Assembly: GCA_021730285.1 (NCBI GenBank)
Contig: CP082962.1
Coordinates: 4,287,501 to 4,351,500, forward strand
Direction of reading: 5' to 3'
DNA length: 64,000 nt
Origin: Desulfovibrio sp. JY
GTDB taxonomy: Bacteria; Desulfobacterota; Desulfovibrionia; Desulfovibrionales; Desulfovibrionaceae
The position numbers and the translations under genes are program-made. The notes beneath the pieces were generated by a model. The model was not told the DNA's origin, did no database searches, and worked only from the letters and a program-made list of their open reading frames with translations. Positions 53,700-63,722 of this stretch are shown here, one piece after another (positions within the stretch are counted from its first letter, which is position 1; each line of letters opens with the position of its first letter).

Positions 53700-55493
53700 T
53701 CAACCAAAATAACGGGCACTCCACTCGTGCATGAAATTATCGTTAGCGGCATTGCGTGCTTCAATCTCCGCTGTGGTCATGGACCGATTGAGATAGGTGG
53801 TCTGCCCGGTGCCCTGCTTCACAGGGGTTTCGTCTCTCCCAAAAAAGATGGTATTTTGGCCATTCCCCACGCTGATGCTTGGCGACAAGGTAAACCAGCC
53901 AAAATACTCTGCCAATTCAAGAGTATTGTTGCCGTCACCCAAGGTAAGGTCGCCAATTATATCCATGCTGCACCCTATGGCAGTGTTGTTTCCATCGCCA
54001 AGATGGATTGATACGCCAGGAGCTGACGAATTCCAGCGCAGAGTGTTATTGCCATCGCCCATTTCCACCTTACCACCTATCATATTTACTGTGACCGTAT
54101 TATCGCCTTGCCCCAGAAAAATGGATGTTTTGCTATGGCCGAACATACGCCCTATGTTAACGGTATTGTCTCCACCACCTGCGGCAAGCATTCCTTGAAA
54201 GGAGTTGATAAGGACAGCATTGTTTCCGTCGCCTGCCGTTATGCCGCCGTCACGCCATGAATCAGCCGTAATCGTGTTGTTCCCTTTGCCCAGCATGATG
54301 TTCCCGCTCCCCGAACACGCAGTGATGGTATTGTCGCCGCCCCCCGCAGTAACCTGACCTGAAAGATAACTGGCATTCAGGGTGTTATCGCAATTCCCCA
54401 TAATAATCTGGCCTGACAAAGAACAAGTAGTCAATGTATTAGTGCCGCATCCCGCAGAAACATAGCCTTCAAGAGAGCAGGTATTAAATTCATTGCTTCC
54501 ACCACCAACAGTAACTTTGCCAGCAAGGGAACATATATTCAATGTATTATTGCCATCCTCCGCAGTAACCCGTCCGGCAAGATAATCGGCTTTCACGGTA
54601 TTGTCGCCGTTCCCCAAATCTATGTTCCCCTTCACATTGCCCACCTCCACGGTGTCGTCGCCATCGCCCATATCGACGGAAATACAGGCATTCAGGACGT
54701 CGCCGCGGAGGGTGTCATTTCCATTGCCGGCATTGAGGCAGGTCGCGCCTGCAACCCCCTTGCCGACCAGAATAGTATCATTGCCCGCGCCGGCGTTGGT
54801 TGCTCCGCCCCCGGCCAACACGACAATGGCGTCGTCGCCCGCACCCGCGTCAATGGTGCTGGCCGCCGTAAGTTGCAAAAATACGTCGTTTCCGTCCGTG
54901 CCGGACAGTTCGCCGGGCGCTCCCTGTTCCACGGTCACGGAACCGTCCGCAGCGTAAATGCGGATTTCACCCGTGGACGCAAAGGCCACGGCCAGAGATC
55001 CGTCTTCCCGCTCGTTAAGGCGCACGTTGCCGTCCGCTGCAAAGGCGACGCTTTGCCCGTTGGCGCGGACAACGGAAACGGAAGCTCCCGTCACGGCAGC
55101 ATTGTGATAATTTGTTGTCACAACAACACGCATGCCGCTGCCGGTGGTCAGCGCGTCTTGCGTCTGCGTCGGCGCTATCCCTCGCGCGGCGGCCAAGGCG
55201 GGAGATACCGTGCCCTTATTGAGGTATTCAAGTAGATCCGCGCCGCTCACCATATCTGCGGAGCGCACCAGGCCCTTGAGCAAATTATGCATGGTGCAAC
55301 CGCGGGATAGCAACGTTTGCTCCAACAGGGATTGCGCACGCTCGGTCTGGCTCTGGCCGGATTGGCCAAGGGAGACGGCATCGCCCGCAGCAGCAGTCGC
55401 AGTGGACGTATCCAATTGCTCCATGGGAAATTCATATATTCGCTCTGGCGCAGTCCACTGATGAACATTATACGCATATGAAATACTGTTCAT
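53700..55493 (-). CDS. RTX-like / beta-helix repeat protein
   Basis: A 597-residue protein. After about 190 residues without a signal peptide come repeats of about 18-20 residues. The first are classical calcium-binding type (DAGAGDDAIVVLAGGGATN, GAGNDTILVGKG); later ones change to GDNT or GNNT turns (GNIDLGNGDNTVKADYL, GQVTAGGGDNTITACSG). The stack should fold as a parallel beta roll or helix. Many such proteins are exported by type I secretion, but no exporter is adjacent. Composition is less GC-rich than the neighbours, hinting at transfer. The target or role is unknown. Confidence 0.75.
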   Translation of the reverse strand: MNSISYAYNVHQWTAPERIYEFPMEQLDTSTATAAAGDAVSLGQSGQSQTERAQSLLEQTLLSRGCTMHNLLKGLVRSADMVSGADLLEYLNKGTVSPALAAARGIAPTQTQDALTTGSGMRVVVTTNYHNAAVTGASVSVVRANGQSVAFAADGNVRLNEREDGSLAVAFASTGEIRIYAADGSVTVEQGAPGELSGTDGNDVFLQLTAASTIDAGAGDDAIVVLAGGGATNAGAGNDTILVGKGVAGATCLNAGNGNDTLRGDVLNACISVDMGDGDDTVEVGNVKGNIDLGNGDNTVKADYLAGRVTAEDGNNTLNICSLAGKVTVGGGSNEFNTCSLEGYVSAGCGTNTLTTCSLSGQIIMGNCDNTLNASYLSGQVTAGGGDNTITACSGSGNIMLGKGNNTITADSWRDGGITAGDGNNAVLINSFQGMLAAGGGDNTVNIGRMFGHSKTSIFLGQGDNTVTVNMIGGKVEMGDGNNTLRWNSSAPGVSIHLGDGNNTAIGCSMDIIGDLTLGDGNNTLELAEYFGWFTLSPSISVGNGQNTIFFGRDETPVKQGTGQTTYLNRSMTTAEIEARNAANDNFMHEWSARYFG

Positions 55494-56047: not shown

Positions 56048-58211
56048 GCTTCAATCCACGCCCCCGTGCGGGAAGCGACTGGCGTCTACCTTGAGAGCTT
56101 GAAGCATCGTTCGACGTTTCAATCCGCGCTCCCGCGCAGGGAGCGACGTGGTCCTGATGTCCTGGCGCACCCCTCCGTCCAGACTTCAATCCACGCTCCC
56201 GCGCAGGGAGCGACCCAGCCCGGCCATGTCGTTCATGCCCATGCGGTGCTTCAATCCACGCCCCCGCACGGGGAGCGACTGGTTCGGGAGCGGCGCAAGA
56301 AGATGAAGGGCATGCTTCAATCCACGCCCCCGCACGGGGAGCGACGCCGCTGATCGTGCCGTAGGAGAGCGGTACGCAATGGCTTCAATCCACGCTCCCG
56401 CGCAGGGAGCGACCCGGAGACGACCAGGGGCATGACCTCCCCTTCCTGCTTCAATCCACGCTCCCGCGCAGGGAGCGACTCACGCACTACATTAGACTCT
56501 TTTAAACGATTGATGCTTCAATCCACGCTCCCGCGCAGGGAGCGACGGGCTCGATGTCGGGCAAGTTCGGTTCGGGCATAGGGCTTCAATCCACGCCCCC
56601 GCGCAGGGAGCGACACATCCAACGGGTGGTGACCTTCACCGGGCCTGCGCTTCAATCCACGCCCCCGCGCAGGGAGCGACTCGCGCTTGACCGCCCGCCC
56701 TTGGCCGGGGCCGTGCTTCAATCCACGCCCCCGCGCAGGGAGCGACCCGGGTCAGTCCGCTCTAAGCCTTTGCCGACGATGCTTCAATCCACGCCCCCGC
56801 GCAGGGAGCGACTTGATCGCCCCGCCCGTGGAGCCGCCCGCGTTGGTGCTTCAATCCACGCCCCCGCGCAGGGAGCGACCCCGCCGCGACCTCGATTTCC
56901 GTCTCGGGGAACGCTTCAATCCACGCCCCCGCGCAGGGAGCGACACGCCGGCTGCACCATCGTTTCGTCGGCCGAAAGCGCTTCAATCCACGCCCCCGCG
57001 CAGGGAGCGACTAAAGGGGGCGACATGAAAGCGATCTGCAAAACGCTTCAATCCACGCCCCCGCGCAGGGAGCGACCACAAAATGGGCCTGCTGCGCAAC
57101 GTCGTCGGGGTGCTTCAATCCACGCCCCCGCGCAGGGAGCGACGAACGCGCCGGCTTTAACCAAGTCACGTACGGTCGGGCTTCAATCCACGCCCCCGCG
57201 CAGGGAGCGACCGATGGAGCGCCTTCCCCGGATACAAAACAGTACGAGCTTCAATCCACGCCCCCGCGCAGGGAGCGACGCGACGTGCGGAAGAGGCGGA
57301 GGCAAAACTGCGTGCTTCAATCCACGCCCCCGCGCAGGGAGCGACCTTGTCCTTGGCAAGGACATGTATTATTTGTATCTGCTTCAATCCACGCCCCCGC
57401 GCAGGGAGCGACGTCGCGCTTGACCGCCCGCCCTTGGCCGGGGCCGTGCTTCAATCCACGCCCCCGCGCAGGGAGCGACCGAAATTCCAGGTCCGGTAGG
57501 GTCTCTTGAGGCTTGCTTCAATCCACGCCCCCGCGCAGGGAGCGACCTGTTTGAGCATGCCGCCCTTCGATCCCAGCGATGCTTCAATCCACGCCCCCGC
57601 GCAGGGAGCGACACATGCTCGAACTCTCGGGGGATTGTCGCCACCATGCTTCAATCCACGCCCCCGCGCAGGGAGCGACCAGACGTTATTGAGGACCTCG
57701 TCAATGCTGAAATGCTTCAATCCACGCCCCCGCGCAGGGAGCGACGGAGGTTACCCGGCGTGGCTCTAAACGTAAGGATGCTTCAATCCACGCCCCCGCG
57801 CAGGGAGCGACCGGTCGCCGGGGGCGCATTGTTGTCCAGCGCATGAGCTTCAATCCACGCCCCCGCGCAGGGAGCGACGCGCACGCGGAGGCCGGGCCGC
57901 AGCCGACGGGCGGCTTCAATCCACGCCCCCGCGCAGGGAGCGACGCAGTCCCGGTAGCGTCAGTGGCCAAGTCAGCCTGGCTTCAATCCACGCCCCCGCG
58001 CAGGGAGCGACTTCCTGTATTACAACAAAATTACGTCGAGAAAATGCTTCAATCCACGCCCCCGCGCAGGGAGCGACTCGGACTCGGGCCGTCTTTTTCT
58101 CTCCGAGGCGAGGCTTCAATCCACGCCCCCGCGCAGGGAGCGACCCGGAGTGCTCGGACACCAAAGCGCAGGAGACGGCGCTTCAATCCACGCCCCCGCG
58201 CAGGGAGCGAC
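56048..58211 (-). CRISPR. type I-C CRISPR array, 33 repeats and 32 spacers
   Basis: Thirty-two-base repeats, on the plus strand GCTTCAATCCACGC...GGGAGCGAC, with spacers of 33-36 bases. On the minus strand this is the I-C repeat ending GGATTGAAGC, so the array is transcribed leftwards, away from cas2. Repeats 9-33 (from 56583) are uniform. The eight at the left end vary: 56048 and 56116 are the most degenerate, 56183, 56382, 56448 and 56515 have GCTCCCGCG, and 56248 and 56314 have CCCCGCACGGGG. This is the normal pattern of an old trailer end. Spacer 56681-56714 recurs at 57413-57447 with one extra base. Confidence 0.98.
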
Positions 58212-58493: not shown

Positions 58494-58784
58494 TTAAAGA
58501 ATGAGAAGTCCCTGCGGATCATAGGCGGGTTTGGCCCCCACATGCTCAACACGATTTTTCCAGTTGGCCCCGAGAAAATAAAACCGCAGACTGTCTTTCT
58601 CCGTATCCATGCACTCCAGCAGATTGGTACGCAGGGCTACCCACTGGGCGGGGTCCACCACGCACTCGAAAACCGAAAACTGCACCCGCTGTCCCCAGTT
58701 CTCACAGTGCCGCGCGATCCTCCGCAACCGACGCCGTCCGGCGGCATCCTGCGTGTTCACGTCATAGCTTACCAGAACCATCAT
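58494..58784 (-). CDS. cas2: CRISPR adaptation protein Cas2
   Basis: A 96-residue Cas2 with the N-terminal beta strand and aspartate (MVLVSYDVNTQDAAGRRRLR), RIARHCENWGQRVQFSVFEC and a C-terminal dimerisation strand. With Cas1 it forms the spacer-integration complex. The start is four bases from the cas1 stop. Confidence 0.97.
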   Translation of the reverse strand: MMVLVSYDVNTQDAAGRRRLRRIARHCENWGQRVQFSVFECVVDPAQWVALRTNLLECMDTEKDSLRFYFLGANWKNRVEHVGAKPAYDPQGLLIL

Positions 58785-58788
58785 GGCG

Positions 58789-59808
58789 TCACCGGATCAC
58801 AAAGGGAGGGTAGGCGTCCAGGTCACCGCGCAGATAGCGGGCAAGCAACCGTGCCTGACAATGATACAGCAGGCCCGCCGCCATCTTTTCCTGCAAAAAG
58901 GGATGCTCCACGGTCTCCTGTTTGCGCTCCTGCCAGGCGGTTATCACGTCCTTGCGGGTGTCCTCGTCCATGATGACGGCCCCTGATTCCGTGCGCCTGA
59001 AGCCTTTGCCCTTCACCTGCCCCCGGTTGATCAGCGTGCAAGCCAGTCTGTCCGCCAGATAGGGACGAAATTCCTCCATGATGTCCAGAGCAAGGCTTGG
59101 CCGGCCGGGCCGGTCGCGGTGCAGAAAACCTACCGCCGGATCAAGCCCGCAGCCTTCAAGCGCGCTCCGCACGTCGTGGGCAAGCAGCGTATACAGAAAG
59201 GAAAGGAGGCAGTTCACGGCATCCAGCGGCGGACGCCGGTTGCGGCCGGCAAAACGGAACGCGGGGTCCTTGCTATGGATAAGACTGCCGAAAGCGCCAA
59301 AATAGGCCTGCGCGGCCTCGCCCTCGATACCGCGAACCATATTAAGAGGTTGAGGCTCGCGTAAACGCATAAGACACTGGGCCAGGCGGGCTACGGCTGT
59401 ATCGAGCTCCGGGCCTGGGCGCTCCCGCGCGGTGCGCAGCAGCACGGTGCGGCAGTTGGCTATTTTGCCGATGACGATGAACGCGGCAATGGCGGCGGAG
59501 GAGGCATCCTCGTCCGCCCGGCGGTACTGCTCGCGGCGCAGCAGCACGTTGCCGCTGACCGGGCCATGCATGGAGGCCAGAAAACGCCCGTTTTGCGTCA
59601 ACCACGAGACCGTCACGCCGTGTTCCGCGCAGTGGCCCAGCAGAAAGGGGCTGCACGAGATCTGACCGAAAAGCACGAGCCCGCCCAACGTATGGATAGG
59701 CACTTTGCCCTTCAAGGCATCGCCCTGGTACACGGCCACGCATTCGCCATCCTTGGCGAGATAACTTTCCTGGGTGGTGACGAACAGCGTGTTGAGCAGC
59801 GGCTTCAT
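58789..59808 (-). CDS. cas1: CRISPR integrase Cas1 (type I-C)
   Basis: A 339-residue Cas1. The catalytic residues are visible in EGEAAQAYF (Glu), GFLHRDRPGRPSLALDIMEE (His and Asp), and the central LLSFLYTLLAHD helix is typical. It inserts new spacers at the leader end. The ATG overlaps the cas4 stop (ATGA) and has GGAGG ahead; the long upstream extension in the same frame is not part of it. Confidence 0.97.
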   Translation of the reverse strand: MKPLLNTLFVTTQESYLAKDGECVAVYQGDALKGKVPIHTLGGLVLFGQISCSPFLLGHCAEHGVTVSWLTQNGRFLASMHGPVSGNVLLRREQYRRADEDASSAAIAAFIVIGKIANCRTVLLRTARERPGPELDTAVARLAQCLMRLREPQPLNMVRGIEGEAAQAYFGAFGSLIHSKDPAFRFAGRNRRPPLDAVNCLLSFLYTLLAHDVRSALEGCGLDPAVGFLHRDRPGRPSLALDIMEEFRPYLADRLACTLINRGQVKGKGFRRTESGAVIMDEDTRKDVITAWQERKQETVEHPFLQEKMAAGLLYHCQARLLARYLRGDLDAYPPFVIR

Positions 59809-60446
59809 GCGTCCTCCAGTACGGATTGCAGATAGGCAGCCGCCGATTTTCGCGGCGCAAGCGGCATGCAGACGTCGCGCAACGAGCAGGCCGGGCAGAT
59901 GGTGTTGGCGATTTCCAGCGGCGGAGGCGGCGGCGTTGCGCCTTGACCCAACAGGGCATGCACGGCCTCGGCGGTTTTGCGGGTTTCTTCCCGCAGGGCT
60001 TCGTCGAAGGACACCACCTGTCGTCGTCGGGTTTTGCCGTAAAAAAGCGCACCCTCGGGAATGGAGGCATCCAGCATTTCTTCCAGACAAAACGCCTGGG
60101 CGCAAAGCTGTATGCGGTCGGCGTCGTTGTTTTTGGGGCGACCGCGCTTGTATTCCACGGGGTACGGCTGCCAGCGTCCTTCGCGCCGGTGGAACTCCAC
60201 CACATCGGCCTGGCCGGTCAGCCCGTATTCATGGGAGCAAAGCAAAAGCCCGGTGACGATTTTGCGGTCGCCACGGCTTTCCGCCACGTTGCCGTGGGCT
60301 TTTTCGTGCAGCTGCCGCCCTTCGGCCGTGTAGACGTTCTCCGTCCACAGCTGTTCCAGATGGATAAGCGCGCACTGCCGGGGGCAGTACAAATAGTGCT
60401 GCAACGCGGAGATGGGGATGGGGTCGGTCGGGGGAAGGTGCTGCAT
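59805..60446 (-). CDS. cas4: CRISPR exonuclease Cas4
   Basis: A 213-residue Cas4: first cysteine region CPRQC (residues 21-25), RecB-like core with GLTGQADVVEF and YPVEYKRGRPK, and C-terminal CPACSLRDVC that completes the 4Fe-4S cluster. In type I-C it selects PAM-containing prespacers with Cas1. AGGAG precedes the ATG. Unlike the rest of the operon it is separated from the gene before it (cas7) by about 400 bases. Confidence 0.96.
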   Translation of the reverse strand: MQHLPPTDPIPISALQHYLYCPRQCALIHLEQLWTENVYTAEGRQLHEKAHGNVAESRGDRKIVTGLLLCSHEYGLTGQADVVEFHRREGRWQPYPVEYKRGRPKNNDADRIQLCAQAFCLEEMLDASIPEGALFYGKTRRRQVVSFDEALREETRKTAEAVHALLGQGATPPPPPLEIANTICPACSLRDVCMPLAPRKSAAAYLQSVLEDA

Positions 60447-60470
60447 GGCGGCATTCTCCTAAGAGGTTTC

Positions 60471-60554
60471 GGCCCCCTCCTTAAGGAAGGGGCCTGCCTA
60501 CCACCGCGAATCATCTCATACAGGCTTCAATCCACGCTCCCGCACAGGAGCGAC
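60471..60554 (-). ncRNA. candidate CreA-like RNA: orphan degenerate repeat with spacer-like flank
   Basis: One 31-base repeat at 60524-60554, in the same orientation as the array, has lost one G but keeps the stem (CGCTCC with GGAGCG) and the GGATTGAAGC 3' handle. The next bases on the minus strand (60523 down to about 60489) would be a spacer of about 35 bases, and a near-perfect 24-base palindrome (60471-60494) closes the unit. This is the layout of a crRNA-like antitoxin (CreA). Cas5c processing and Cascade loading are inferred. Confidence 0.5.
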
Positions 60555-60587
60555 GAGCAATCAGTGGACCCATGATTGCCCCGCCTG

Positions 60588-60617
60588 TTGACAGACGGGA
60601 CAATCATAAGTTTAAAT
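60588..60617 (+). promoter_or_regulatory. promoter-like sites in the cas7-cas4 gap
   Basis: On the plus strand TTGACA (60588-60593), 18 bases, TTAAAT (60612-60617). On the minus strand TATGAT (60608-60603) could be the -10 of an RNA running into the orphan repeat. The two overlap, so transcripts in both directions may start here. Confidence 0.4.
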
Positions 60618-60637
60618 GAATAGAAATCGACAGGGAC

Positions 60638-60686
60638 TGGAGAGTCTTCCTGACACTCTTGCCAGGACGCGCGGGAAGACTCTCCA
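60638..60686. repeat. long inverted repeat in the cas7-cas4 gap
   Basis: TGGAGAGTCTTCC (60638-60650) pairs perfectly with GGAAGACTCTCCA (60674-60686); inside, CCTG pairs with CAGG. On the minus strand it directly follows the 14-codon ORF and may act as its stabilising or terminating hairpin. Confidence 0.6.
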
Positions 60687-60699
60687 ACTGCGGCGAAAA

Positions 60700-60744
60700 T
60701 CACGCCCCTATATGACTGCCGCCTGCGGCTAATAACATCTGCAT
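60700..60744 (-). CDS. candidate CreT-like mini-ORF (14 codons) with tandem rare codons
   Basis: ATG CAG ATG TTA TTA GCC ... ATA ... TGA encodes MQMLLAAGGSHIGA. A perfect AAGGAGG lies 8 bases before the ATG. TTA-TTA and ATA are among the rarest codons expected in DNA this rich in GC. Some CreT toxins are mini-ORFs that trap ribosomes and rare tRNAs at such codons. Coding as a functional peptide is not claimed. Confidence 0.45.
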   Translation of the reverse strand: MQMLLAAGGSHIGA

Positions 60745-60853
60745 ATTGCCATCCTCCTTAATACCCTTTTTCCCGGCCCCAGAAATACGTACGAGAGAAT
60801 TTGCGGGCTGTCTAGCAAAAAATCTTCCTGTAGAGATAATTCAAGGTAACAAA

Positions 60854-61702
60854 TTAAAACCCCTCCAAAACCTCCGCCGTCAGCCCCGGCGTGGCCTCAC
60901 CGTCCAGCTCGTAACTCCCGTCGCCCTTGACCGTCAGGCTCTTGTGGACCTTGGCCGACGAGAACTGCCCGGCCTTGCTGTTGTGCTGCCACCAGAAGAC
61001 GTGGTTGACGGCCATGCTGCCTTCCGGCCGGGCGGACGAGGCGTCGTTCTCGAACAGCCGGGGCAAAATACCCTTGAGTACCGTCGCGTCCTCGTCACGA
61101 AAGCCCGTGCGCTCGGCAAGCTGTGGGTTGATGCTGCCGTAAAAAACGTACACGCCCCTATCCACACGGTGCTTCATGCCCATGGTGTCCGAGCCGCGCT
61201 TACTGCCGTCGCCCTCGCTGCTCACGCTCTTGGTGATCTGGATGCTGGCCACGCTGACCGGCTCCACACTGAAGGCGGCATGGAGGCTCACCGGGCCGCG
61301 AACCGCAATGGAAACGCCGGCGGCGTCATCCTGCTTGCCAAAGGCGAAAAGCTGGCCGAAAGCCCGCACGTCGTACCACTTGGCGCAGGCCTTGCGCGCC
61401 GTTTCTTCCTTGCTGCTCTTTTTCGGGTTGAAAGCGTCCTTGCCCAGGCCATGTTCGGCGGATTCCGCCCGCTCCTTGAGCGAAGCCATGCCGTCCAGCT
61501 TGCGGTCGTCGGACTGCACAAAAACACCCTGCCCCAGCTCCATGAGCCGGTCACGAATCTTGCGTTTGAGACAGACGTCGCTGATTTCGCCGTAGCCTTC
61601 ATAGTCGGTGCGGGGGCGGTTGCCGTTGAGCGGATCGCCGTTGGGGTTGGCATGGTCAACGGTGAGAATGACGGCGAAGTCGATCTTGTGTTGCAGACTC
61701 AT
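60854..61702 (-). CDS. cas7: Cascade backbone protein Cas7 (Csd2)
   Basis: A 282-residue Cas7 of type I-C. It opens with KIDFAVILTVDHANPNGDPL and contains GEISDVCLKRKIRDRLME, VRAFGQLFAFGKQ and SIQITKSVSSEG, the normal Csd2 landmarks. Several copies coat the crRNA. The start is two bases after the cas8c stop with GGAGAATAG ahead. Confidence 0.97.
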   Translation of the reverse strand: MSLQHKIDFAVILTVDHANPNGDPLNGNRPRTDYEGYGEISDVCLKRKIRDRLMELGQGVFVQSDDRKLDGMASLKERAESAEHGLGKDAFNPKKSSKEETARKACAKWYDVRAFGQLFAFGKQDDAAGVSIAVRGPVSLHAAFSVEPVSVASIQITKSVSSEGDGSKRGSDTMGMKHRVDRGVYVFYGSINPQLAERTGFRDEDATVLKGILPRLFENDASSARPEGSMAVNHVFWWQHNSKAGQFSSAKVHKSLTVKGDGSYELDGEATPGLTAEVLEGF

Positions 61703-61703
61703 T

Positions 61704-62114
61704 CTATTCTCCTTCCTGATTATTTTCTTCTGGTGTATTGTCTTTTTCTGTCTTGGTATAGAGATCTGCCATCTGGGTGTGATAGCCCAACAGAAATTCT
61801 CCGCTGAGCTTGGCAGAGGAGATAAACGCCTCCGGCAAAAATTTATCGAAAATTTCGCGCAGAACTTTCTGCGCGCGCGCAAGCAACTTGACACGTGCGC
61901 TACTTTGCAGCCGCTGAATATAGGGAGAAAGTTGCAGTTCCAGCTGCCGCCAAGTGGCATACGGATGGTCGGCAAAGCGCTGCATAAGACGCTCCGCATT
62001 CGTAGGACGTCTTTCTTCCGTCATCGTAAGAGCCGTGCGCTCTATGTATTCCGCCACAGCCAGAAGTCGCCCGTACAGGTAGTCTCGGGATGTACGATCC
62101 TTATCAAGAGCCAT
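61704..62114 (-). CDS. cas11c: internal small-subunit gene cas11c (in frame within cas8c)
   Basis: An in-frame ATG at cas8c residue 537 (MALDKDRTSRDYLYG) has AAAGAGGAA 6-8 bases upstream and would give a 136-residue helical protein identical to the Cas8c C-terminus. In type I-C systems the small subunit Cas11c is known to be made from such an internal start. Expression is inferred. Confidence 0.65.
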   Translation of the reverse strand: MALDKDRTSRDYLYGRLLAVAEYIERTALTMTEERRPTNAERLMQRFADHPYATWRQLELQLSPYIQRLQSSARVKLLARAQKVLREIFDKFLPEAFISSAKLSGEFLLGYHTQMADLYTKTEKDNTPEENNQEGE

Positions 62115-63722
62115 ACCGTATTCCTCTTTTTGAAGATGCCTGGCGTAATACCCTTTATAGACGCCGCAGGCCACGCCGAGCACTTCCGGCCATTCCCATT
62201 TTTCCAGCGCGACACGGTTGCAGGCCCGGCGCACGCAGCACTCCACGATGTCGCGCGGCAGAGGCGCGGCATCCACAACGCAGGGCAGCAGGCGCTCCAC
62301 CGTGGCCTTGCGCAGCTTGTCGTCGATACGCCTGCCGTAGGCCACCCGGGCGATGGTTTCCGGCGTCGGCGCGCAGACGGCAAAGACCGTTCGCAAACGC
62401 TTTTTACCACGCCCCGTATCTTCTTCCGGCAGACGCACCGGCAGCACCCAGGCGCAATCTTCCTGCCATTTTTCCAGATTGCCCAAATACTGTTCCAGCA
62501 TCTGTTCGCGGTAGAAGGTCACGGCAAGACGGCCGGGGCTGGCGGCATCCAGCGCCATGATCGCAATGCCGTCCGTGTCTCGCAGGTCGGCCCGGTAGCC
62601 CGCCAGGGCCTTGCGTAGCCTTTCGGCGAACACCAGCCCCATATTCGGCGGCGGCGTTTTGGGCTGCGCGCCGGCGTCCGCGTCCGCCGACAACTCCGGC
62701 GCATCATCCCGCAACAAATCCTCGTCAGCCATGTTTAAGAAGTCTTCGCAAGGATTGGGCACGCGCGCGCCGCTCACGGCCCAGGCCACAACCGCCTGCT
62801 CCCCGTTGCGGTAGCCTTGGCGGGCGATGAGCCAACGCAGAGCGTTATGGGCCTTGTGGCTTGTTTCATACCCCACGGTGCAGGCCTCATCCGCCTCGAT
62901 AAATCGCCCCCTGAAGGTGAAGTTGGCGGCATCATTGGACGAGATGAGCTTGGCTCCGTCACCGGGGCGACGGATATTGCGGGGATGGTTCTGGGCGCAC
63001 GCCACAACCTCGCCGGCAGCCATACAAAGTGCGCTGTTCTTTACCAGCTGCGCATCGAAAAGCATCCACTGCTTTTGCAGTTCCTTGTTTCTCCACGTGC
63101 GGTCTTCCAGTTCCTTACCGACAACTTTCCAGCATACGATGGCATCACCCTGATCAAAGAGTTTTGTCTTCTGATCCTTGGTGATATATTTAAAAATTCC
63201 GTCGATCTCCCCTTCCTTCGGGTTTGTCAGCAAATTTCCCGACGTATCGACACGAAGGATTCCTTCCTCAACAAGCTTTGAAACCAGCTCTCCCTTGGCA
63301 ATGAATGCGCGAACAGCCTGAACCATGGGATGTGTAAATTCTGACTCGCTCCACTTCGTCAAAAGCTCAAAATATGCTTCAAACCCACCCTTGAATGTTT
63401 CCGCCTTTTTCCCCTTGTAGTCCCTGGCGCAATAATGGATCTTATCAATCAAAGGGTGCGGGGCGACTTTTGCGCCAGCTCTTCCAGCGGAACCTTCCGT
63501 CGCGGGAATGATGAGTTGCGCCTTAAGCGGCATGAGTTCGGCGCGTTTGAAATTGCCCTCGCTGTCAAGCGTAACGCAAATGTGCGCCTGCTGGCTGGTG
63601 TGGCTCACGGGCATGAGCGTCGGGGCTTCCTTGCCGCCGTCCTCCGCCTGCGGTGGCTCCGTGTAGTCTGAGTTGCTGGCGCAGGCCTCATAGGTTTCAA
63701 AAAGCTTCTGCATCCAGCTCAC
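61704..63722 (-). CDS. cas8c: Cascade large subunit Cas8c (Csd1)
   Basis: A 672-residue Cas8c. Csd1 features are WMQKLFETYEACA at the start, the central VVAWAVSGARVPNP and PPNMGLVFAERLRKAL segments, and a helical C-terminal part (ERLMQRFADHPYATWRQLE). It reads the PAM and starts R-loop formation. The ATG overlaps the cas5c stop. The C-terminal 136 residues probably also exist as a separate Cas11c. Confidence 0.96.
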   Translation of the reverse strand: MSWMQKLFETYEACASNSDYTEPPQAEDGGKEAPTLMPVSHTSQQAHICVTLDSEGNFKRAELMPLKAQLIIPATEGSAGRAGAKVAPHPLIDKIHYCARDYKGKKAETFKGGFEAYFELLTKWSESEFTHPMVQAVRAFIAKGELVSKLVEEGILRVDTSGNLLTNPKEGEIDGIFKYITKDQKTKLFDQGDAIVCWKVVGKELEDRTWRNKELQKQWMLFDAQLVKNSALCMAAGEVVACAQNHPRNIRRPGDGAKLISSNDAANFTFRGRFIEADEACTVGYETSHKAHNALRWLIARQGYRNGEQAVVAWAVSGARVPNPCEDFLNMADEDLLRDDAPELSADADAGAQPKTPPPNMGLVFAERLRKALAGYRADLRDTDGIAIMALDAASPGRLAVTFYREQMLEQYLGNLEKWQEDCAWVLPVRLPEEDTGRGKKRLRTVFAVCAPTPETIARVAYGRRIDDKLRKATVERLLPCVVDAAPLPRDIVECCVRRACNRVALEKWEWPEVLGVACGVYKGYYARHLQKEEYGMALDKDRTSRDYLYGRLLAVAEYIERTALTMTEERRPTNAERLMQRFADHPYATWRQLELQLSPYIQRLQSSARVKLLARAQKVLREIFDKFLPEAFISSAKLSGEFLLGYHTQMADLYTKTEKDNTPEENNQEGE

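Follow-up and report, generated by a model that had tools for sequence, protein, structure and literature searches.

A putative CreTA-type RNA toxin module between cas7 and cas4 of a type I-C CRISPR-Cas operon in Desulfovibrio

The type I-C operon

The DNA discussed here, called the window, is a stretch of 64,000 nucleotides from Desulfovibrio sp. JY (contig CP082962.1). Its minus strand carries an intact type I-C operon in the order cas3, cas5c, cas8c, cas7, gap, cas4, cas1, cas2, and then a CRISPR array. The genes were assigned by NCBIfam matches, which are to type I-C models for cas5, cas8c, cas7 and cas1, and to general models for cas4, cas2 and cas3. As an earlier note on this DNA had remarked, and as is seen in the sequence, the cas genes are tightly packed, overlapping or nearly touching at every junction save one. 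The exception is the spacing between cas7 and cas4, which is 407 bases long (60447-60853).

Type I-C systems use a TTC PAM, and their guides are processed by Cas5c with an 11-base handle. The seven cas genes of this operon do not include a cas6, and the Cas6 model TIGR01877 has zero matches in the genome of the window, a single contig of 4.69 Mb. This model finds matches in just 7 of 14 control genomes and does not detect every Cas6 family, so a Cas6 of another family may be present.

The region holds 34 copies of the repeat, 33 in the array and one in the gap between cas7 and cas4. The array repeats are more variable toward the low-coordinate end, and an identical spacer stands twice in the array, at 56680-56710 and 57413-57443, with some 733 bases between. 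An ORF of 597 residues adjoins the array (53700-55493, minus strand); it has an internal 54-base repeat and probably encodes a repetitive beta-type protein.

Elements between cas7 and cas4

Within the gap there is no complete ORF as long as 80 codons. Searching the gap against Rfam gave a single chance miRNA match, far under the cut-off, and a plasmid search with its sequence gave zero matches. Read in the sense of the operon, the gap contains a PAM with a match site, a presumed promoter, a Shine-Dalgarno (SD) sequence, a 14-codon ORF, a stem-loop, a palindrome, a degenerate repeat, a guide and a GC-rich hairpin (Table 1). The earlier note had listed AAGGAGG, a mini-ORF, a hairpin with a 13-bp stem, a degenerate I-C repeat, a spacer-like flank and a palindrome, and every one of these is there; the PAM-flanked match site beside the end of cas7 was not in its list.

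Table 1. Features of the type I-C operon and of its cas7-cas4 gap, in window coordinates
Feature	Coordinates	Strand	Remarks
cas8c (Csd1)	61704..63722	-	TIGR01863
cas7 (Csd2)	60854..61702	-	TIGR02589
Predicted CreA target	60825..60842	+	PAM TTC (60825-60827) + protospacer CTGTAGAGATAATTC; homologous sites in L003, L004
Presumed creT promoter and leader	60763..60824	-	between target and SD; inferred from position only
SD AAGGAGG of mini-ORF	60759-60753	-	
Putative creT mini-ORF, 14 codons	60700..60744	-	AUG CAG AUG UUA UUA GCC GCA GGC GGC AGU CAU AUA GGG GCG UGA
Putative creT stem-loop	60638..60686	-	stable, 13-bp stem; z -4.2
Promoter-like TTGACA-17-TTTAAA	60588..60616	+	antisense to operon; presumed function
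Palindrome	60572..60607	-	overlaps the antisense -35 motif
Putative creA degenerate repeat (psiR1)	60524..60554	-	I-C handle intact, 7-bp stem, altered loop
Putative creA guide (psiS)	60494..60523	-	about 30 nt
GC-rich hairpin ending creA	60471..60494	-	about 30 nt after handle
cas4	59805..60446	-	TIGR00372
cas1, type I-C	58789..59808	-	TIGR03640
cas2	58494..58784	-	TIGR01573
CRISPR array	56048..58211	-	33 repeats

The degenerate repeat, psiR1, has 31 bases, one fewer than the 32-base array repeat. A search of the 4.69-Mb genome with an 18-base pattern from the handle-side half of the repeat, allowing up to three mismatches, returned 37 places. These are the 33 of the array, psiR1 (0 mismatches) and three others with 2-3 mismatches; the three others are at the level of the backward control, which also gave 3 places. 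A second repeat, psiR2, is usual although not universal in CreTA modules. Here its place is taken by the GC-rich hairpin, in which the handle sequence is lost. This hairpin is either a worn second repeat, with its stem retained and its handle gone, or an independent 3' end.

Recurrence in relatives

Genomes of the order, 348 in all, were searched for a Cas7 of the window type (E up to 1e-60). Eighteen have one, and the cassette is found in three of these. The carriers are the window, a genome of the same genus (G025, locus L003, gap of 461 bases) and a genome of another genus in the same family (G068, locus L004, gap of 477 bases). At least 14 of the 18 are without the cassette. In 11 of the other 15, cas7 either overlaps cas4 or is separated from it by no more than 19 bases. 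In two others the gap is 89 bases (G224) or about 56 bases (G293), with no repeat in either, and in G327 it holds a protein-coding insert. In G158, cas4 lies outside the stretch examined.

Comparing this gap among related I-C loci had been proposed as a check on the module. In both relatives, the position of the mini-ORF, the rare codon pair, the stem-loop, the degenerate repeat and the guide all recur. This recurrence in related I-C operons favours the reading of the note; of the 18 genomes whose Cas7 is of the window type, just three have the cassette.

The putative RNA of the window folds more stably than 100 of 100 shuffled sequences (z -4.8), and the corresponding RNAs of the relatives give z -5.3 and -4.6. 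The stem-loop behind the mini-ORF is the same helix in the window and in L004, where a T-A pair has become C-G by a two-sided, compensatory change; L003 has a different stem-loop, directly behind its ORF. In all three modules, psiR1 forms a hairpin with a free handle, with a loop and length unlike those of the array repeats, and a GC-rich hairpin follows the guide. A C-G pair in the psiR1 stem of the others is T-A in L004, again a paired change. Taken alone, the psiR1 hairpins do not exceed shuffled sequences in stability (z about -1.1 to -1.3); what supports them is the paired change, together with the conservation.

The guides and their targets

In the window, the guide CTGTATGAGATGATTC matches the TTC-flanked protospacer of Table 1, at a site 11 bases past the stop codon of cas7. 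Bases 1-5, 7-11 and 13-16 of the guide are paired, base 12 is unpaired, and base 6 is left partnerless by a one-base gap. Over 17 positions this gives a score of 13 (14 matches, one deletion charged). With one gap allowed, 3 shuffled guides in 20,000 attain this score at a TTC site; when TTC is not required, 0.8% of shuffles do so. Ungapped, the match is unremarkable, with a best score of 11 anywhere (reached by 30% of shuffles) and 6 when anchored at TTC (93%). Among the 33 spacers of the array, one reaches 14 in this region without TTC, and at TTC sites they score 10 at most. The pattern of TTC plus guide, ungapped and with three mismatches, occurs at four other places in the window genome versus seven in the backward control. 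On its own, then, the case for a guide and target in the window is suggestive.

The relatives strengthen the case. In L003, the guide GTGTATGGAGATGTCAG agrees with GTGTAAGGAGATGTCAG behind cas7 at 16 of 17 positions, base 6 alone differing, and none of 20,000 shuffled guides reaches 16 of 17 with any PAM. The bases beside this match are TCA, with TTC one base further out. Across the whole G025 genome, the only zero-mismatch matches of the guide pattern are the L003 guide and target themselves, and the 67 array spacers of that genome score at most 13 in the L003 gap. In L004, the guide GAGTGTAGAGTAATTAG matches TTC-GAGTGAAGACTTATTAG at 14 of 17 positions, with differences at 6, 10 and 12. Here, no shuffle among 20,000 does as well ungapped at TTC, and 0.2% do so without the TTC requirement.

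When the guide of one module is set against the gap of another, all six cross-pairings score 11 or less. The three guides are related yet distinct, and each target has followed its guide. Published CreTA guides pair through bases 1-5 and 7-11 with a PAM-flanked toxin promoter, bases 6 and 12 being irrelevant (PMC8501985). By this seed test, L003 is fully paired with its PAM register off by one, L004 is paired except for a mismatch at position 10, and the window is complete only with guide base 6 left partnerless.

Rare codons and tRNA

Three ORF starts can be set side by side: AUG CAG AUG UUA UUA in the window, AUG CGU GUC UUA UUA in L004, and AUG CAU GUC AUA AUA AAU UAA in L003. Common to them are a start, two codons, and then an identical rare pair at codons 4-5, which is TTA-TTA in the window and L004 and ATA-ATA in L003. 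The ORF of L004 runs for 56 codons, with no early stop; rare codons that open a longer ORF could act likewise (PMC8501985).

Codon usage was sampled from ORFs with 250 codons or more: in the window genome (G000) these were 117 genes, with 61,019 codons in total, in G025 81 genes and in G068 77 genes. Per 1000 codons of these sampled genes, TTA occurs 2.29 times in G000, 1.89 times in G025 and 1.37 times in G068; the figures for ATA are 4.42, 2.83 and 7.25. The earlier note had staked its reading in part on the rarity of TTA and ATA, and the sampled genes of the window genome bear this out. TTA is among the rarest codons there, at 2.3% of Leu codons, and ATA makes up 11.8% of Ile codons. In every module, the doubled codon is one that is rare among the sampled genes of the same genome. 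Ordinary genes do contain such tandem pairs of TTA or ATA as well, 5 in the 117 genes sampled from G000 and 4 each in the samples from G025 and G068. Where the note had counted TTA-TTA and a later ATA together as the rare-codon feature, the tandem pair is shared; the later ATA of the window ORF is probably incidental, because the shared feature is the pair at codons 4-5.

ARAGORN finds one tRNA-Leu(UAA) gene among 45 tRNA matches in the window genome, in a list that contains neither tRNA-Ile(GAU) nor tRNA-Ala(UGC) and is, for that reason, incomplete. The cassette of the window has the design of a tRNA-sequestering creT, with a strong SD, AUG, two consecutive rare codons and a stem-loop. Tandem rare codons whose identity changes between relatives are difficult to account for unless they are translated and trap a tRNA.

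Promoters in the cassette

Between the target and the SD of the window there is no good sigma-70 match. Candidates for the creT promoter in the relatives are fair, and better than in the window: TTGACG-17-TACATG in L003 and TTGCAA-17-TAAAAC in L004. The PAM stands some 3-4 bases before the fair -35 box in L003, and 8 bases before it in L004. This position, just before a -35 box, suits occlusion of a promoter.

A scan for promoters and terminators over 60300-61000 reported no promoter and no terminator-like site. The best-scoring sigma-70-like site in all three modules is on the strand antisense to the operon, where TTGACA is followed, after 17-18 bases, by TTTAAA or TTAAAT / TATTAT / TAGAAA. 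The window's site at 60588-60616 was missed by the stricter promoter scan. In L003 and L004, too, TTGACA lies between the stem-loop and the repeat. An RNA started from the antisense promoter-like site would cover the stem-loop, the mini-ORF and the SD in antisense. The ORFs beneath these sites are, by eye, unlike among the three modules.

A proposed circuit

The anatomy of the gap, the match of guide and target, their joint change, the paired changes in helices, the rarity of the codons and the presence or absence of the cassette are all observed. From these we infer the transcription, processing, repression, toxicity and addiction of a module. The earlier note had read the gap as a CreTA-like module in a Cas4-containing I-C operon, and this reading is largely supported by codon rarity, by recurrence in two relatives and by the co-change of guide and target. 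Judged by its sequence, the gap is probably a CreTA-type module of type I-C, with an RNA toxin repressed by Cascade.

Such a module would work as follows. A promoter just behind cas7 would give a short RNA, CreT, whose mini-ORF would combine strong initiation with an immediate UUA-UUA, ahead of a stable stem-loop. Repeated translation would tie up scarce tRNA-Leu(UAA), and growth would be arrested. The worn I-C repeat, with handle and stem intact, would give a crRNA-like CreA, cut by Cas5c; since no Cas6 was found, it is Cas5c that would mature the guide. CreA would bring Cascade (Cas5c-Cas8c-Cas7), by its partial match and the TTC PAM, to the creT promoter, which would be silenced, and so short a guide match would not license cutting by Cas3. 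Were Cascade lost or inhibited, the toxin would be freed, and the cell would thereby depend on its CRISPR effector.

The main rival, which we regard as unlikely rather than implausible, is autorepression of the kind described for CreR. Here, the guide and Cascade would repress a promoter in the gap that serves cas4-cas1-cas2, and would tune acquisition to the supply of free Cascade, the mini-ORF being a non-toxic leader. The cassette does split genes that overlap or nearly touch in those 11 of 15 relatives. Because it separates cas7 from cas4, the genes cas4-cas1-cas2, which lie downstream of the target, must be read either through it or from it. CreRs repress cas promoters by partial matches in types I-B, I-E and V-A (PMC13131331). 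For a pure regulator, however, a strong SD, tandem rare codons of changing identity and a stem-loop of 12-13 bp would be superfluous; and the target adjoins the mini-ORF, some 380 bases away from cas4. A mixture, in which one promoter serves both the toxin and the adaptation genes, is possible.

It is improbable that the rare-codon mini-ORF and the stem-loop are a translation-coupled leader, controlling read-through into creA or cas4 by the stalling of ribosomes. The order of ORF, stem-loop and downstream genes would suit such attenuation, as would the tandem rare codons, but it leaves the co-change of guide and target without account, and the region from 60300 to 61000 is without a terminator-like site. 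Equally improbable is a remnant of an array or of an off-target integration, that is, a decayed and functionless repeat beside a mini-ORF and matches that arose by chance. Four genomes from another genus do have I-C mini-arrays at this place between cas7 and cas4, with no comparable TTC-flanked self-target, and the window's own match is imperfect. Against this, handle and stem have been kept while loop and flanks diverged, and guide and target have changed together in L003 and L004. An RNA anti-CRISPR (Racr), a solitary repeat of a mobile element that titrates Cas proteins, would explain a solitary repeat unit with an intact handle, but is scarcely credible for a repeat that lies inside a cas operon, in the same place in two relatives, with a guide that has a local PAM-flanked target; Racrs are described as encoded by viral genomes (PMC10651486).

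Comparison with known systems

The CreT of Halobacterium hubeiense (type I-B) is a six-codon ORF of AUG, two codons and two AUA, and sequesters tRNA-Ile(CAU) (PMC8501985). The ORF of L003 has this same layout, and a stem-loop and a degenerate repeat are likewise shared. Pairing through 1-5 and 7-11 at the toxin promoter, with a TTC PAM on the complement strand (PMC8501985), has its predicted counterpart here. Unlike that system, the putative module here is of type I-C, bacterial, without a match to the Cas6 model, and placed between cas7 and cas4. The window toxin would use UUA (Leu), its second repeat is at most a hairpin, and one guide base is partnerless.

The CreTA of Haloarcula hispanica (type I-B) shares with the cassette of the window a strong SD, an AUG start, a consecutive pair of rare codons (AGA in that case) and a stem-loop. 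Its creA has one repeat and ends in something other than a repeat at the 3' side (PMC8501985), as the putative creA here may do. Its codon and its CRISPR subtype are different, and the window has no proven terminator.

The Acinetobacter CreTA (type I-F) lies, like the module here, in a gap of about 400 bp in an otherwise continuous cas operon, and in some relatives only. It too has a mini-ORF with an SD and a guide that partly matches a PAM-flanked site, and the published evidence for its prediction is of the same kind as ours (PMC10097628). In Acinetobacter, however, creA and creT are divergent, whereas they are on the same strand here; Csy4 matures the guide there; and its toxin has been characterised as a bactericidal RNA of a distinct kind, unlike the putative creT here (PMC10097628). 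Earlier predicted CreTA modules were said to surround cas6, in type I or III loci; a cas6 in the neighbourhood is thus a regularity of the first published cases, though no part of the definition (PMC10097628), and this operon departs from it.

CreR (types I-B, I-E and V-A; PMC13131331) resembles the proposed module in its crRNA-like guide and in repressing a promoter by a partial match. It generally has no toxin gene and targets a cas promoter, where the gap has a toxin-like mini-ORF. CrePA also uses a crRNA-like guide to silence a toxin gene; its toxin is a protein, typically with a KilA-N domain (PMC12737573), for which the gap is too small.

No type I-C CreTA or CreR was found in the open-licence literature, where the characterised CreTA systems are of types I-B and I-F. 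In these, a nuclease of the Cas6 family matures the antitoxin. What the window encodes is likely the same circuit as CreTA, in a subtype without Cas6, with tRNA-Leu as its victim. If so, the addiction strategy would also work where Cas5c does the processing and Cascade is minimal, and this would suggest a reason for the persistence of I-C operons in spite of what they cost. Guide, target and putatively trapped tRNA vary together among the three related cassettes, which form a natural series for testing each step.

Similar cassettes in other I-C loci

A wider scan covered 80 named loci with a related Cas4, out of 348. Here, 37 solitary handles were scored for a self-match within 1,500 bases, TTC being favoured. 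Nine handles scored at least 16.5 (0.52 expected from shuffled guides) and eight at least 17.5 (0.045 expected); all nine of these top-scoring self-matches are at TTC. Unrelated cassettes of similar plan are thus found in seven or eight of the 80 loci. These are L123 (Candidimonas), L132 (Burkholderiales), L136 (Ramlibacter), L147 (Rhizobiales), L152 (Methyloversatilis), L164 (Telmatospirillum) and L168 (Gluconacetobacter aggeris), all of which we take to be alpha, beta or gamma Proteobacteria; L134, with a score of 16.5 (0.52 expected per set), is probably a further one. L121 (17.5) was discounted, lying inside cas4 and having no stem.

Seven of the cassettes stand upstream of cas5 (L123, L132, L134, L136, L147, L152 and L164), among the 52 loci in which that region spans 150 bases or more. 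The gene before cas5 in these loci was judged by eye to be cas3, and the L147 cassette is on the opposite strand. The L168 cassette is in the cas7-cas4 gap, also on the opposite strand, and ends with a terminator-like hairpin and a run of T. In all eight loci, the 90 bases that follow the handle can form a hairpin of -18 kcal/mol or stronger, as counted without a shuffle control.

The possible toxins of these cassettes vary. Similar basic peptides were seen by eye in L164 (201-281, plus strand), L168 (3782-3856, minus strand) and L147 (205-291, minus strand). They have 24-28 residues, RIR near the start, and an acidic or aromatic end with PP last, and their ORFs sit between target and repeat. 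In L123 and L134, ORFs chosen by eye give peptides with a hydrophobic end, and L136 and L152 share, again by eye, the start of an SD-led mini-ORF. A scan for short SD-led ORFs gave none in L132, and none in sense for L123 and L134. Five of the small peptides were tested, with no match in Pfam (E up to 1) or NCBIfam (E up to 0.01). The small-peptide ORFs of L123, L134, L147, L164 and L168 may be nearer to the CrePA class. Scanning for a solitary degenerate handle with a TTC-flanked self-match nearby offers a way to RNA and peptide toxins which a search by homology would be unlikely to reveal.

These loci invite a broader proposal, which we put forward tentatively and which, taken as a whole, is more doubtful than the reading of the window itself. 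I-C systems may broadly carry interchangeable toxin cassettes silenced by Cascade, in the cas7-cas4 or the cas3-cas5 gap and on either strand. Their guides would be cut by Cas5c, not Cas6, and capped by a strong hairpin in place of a second repeat. The toxin would vary, from RNAs with tandem rare codons that switch the trapped tRNA (UUA to AUA), to short basic peptides ending in PP, to small membrane peptides. The form in the Desulfovibrionaceae would add control of the toxin by an RNA from the antisense promoter.

Four loci from one other genus, L024, L025, L032 and L042, have mini-arrays between cas7 and cas4, made up of I-C repeats that are in part degenerate. As a negative control, with matches to their own duplicated spacers excluded, these gave best scores of 12.5 to 17.0, and no TTC-flanked score above 14.5. 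L032 has duplicated spacer units, and one of its spacers scores 17.0 without TTC. Since each has at least two repeats and none a TTC-flanked self-target of comparable quality, the four were rejected as further cassettes and treated as ordinary mini-arrays. The cas7-cas4 gap of L228 holds an unrelated gene of about 190 codons, whose product resembles, by eye, a four-helix protein of the 23S-rRNA-intron type.
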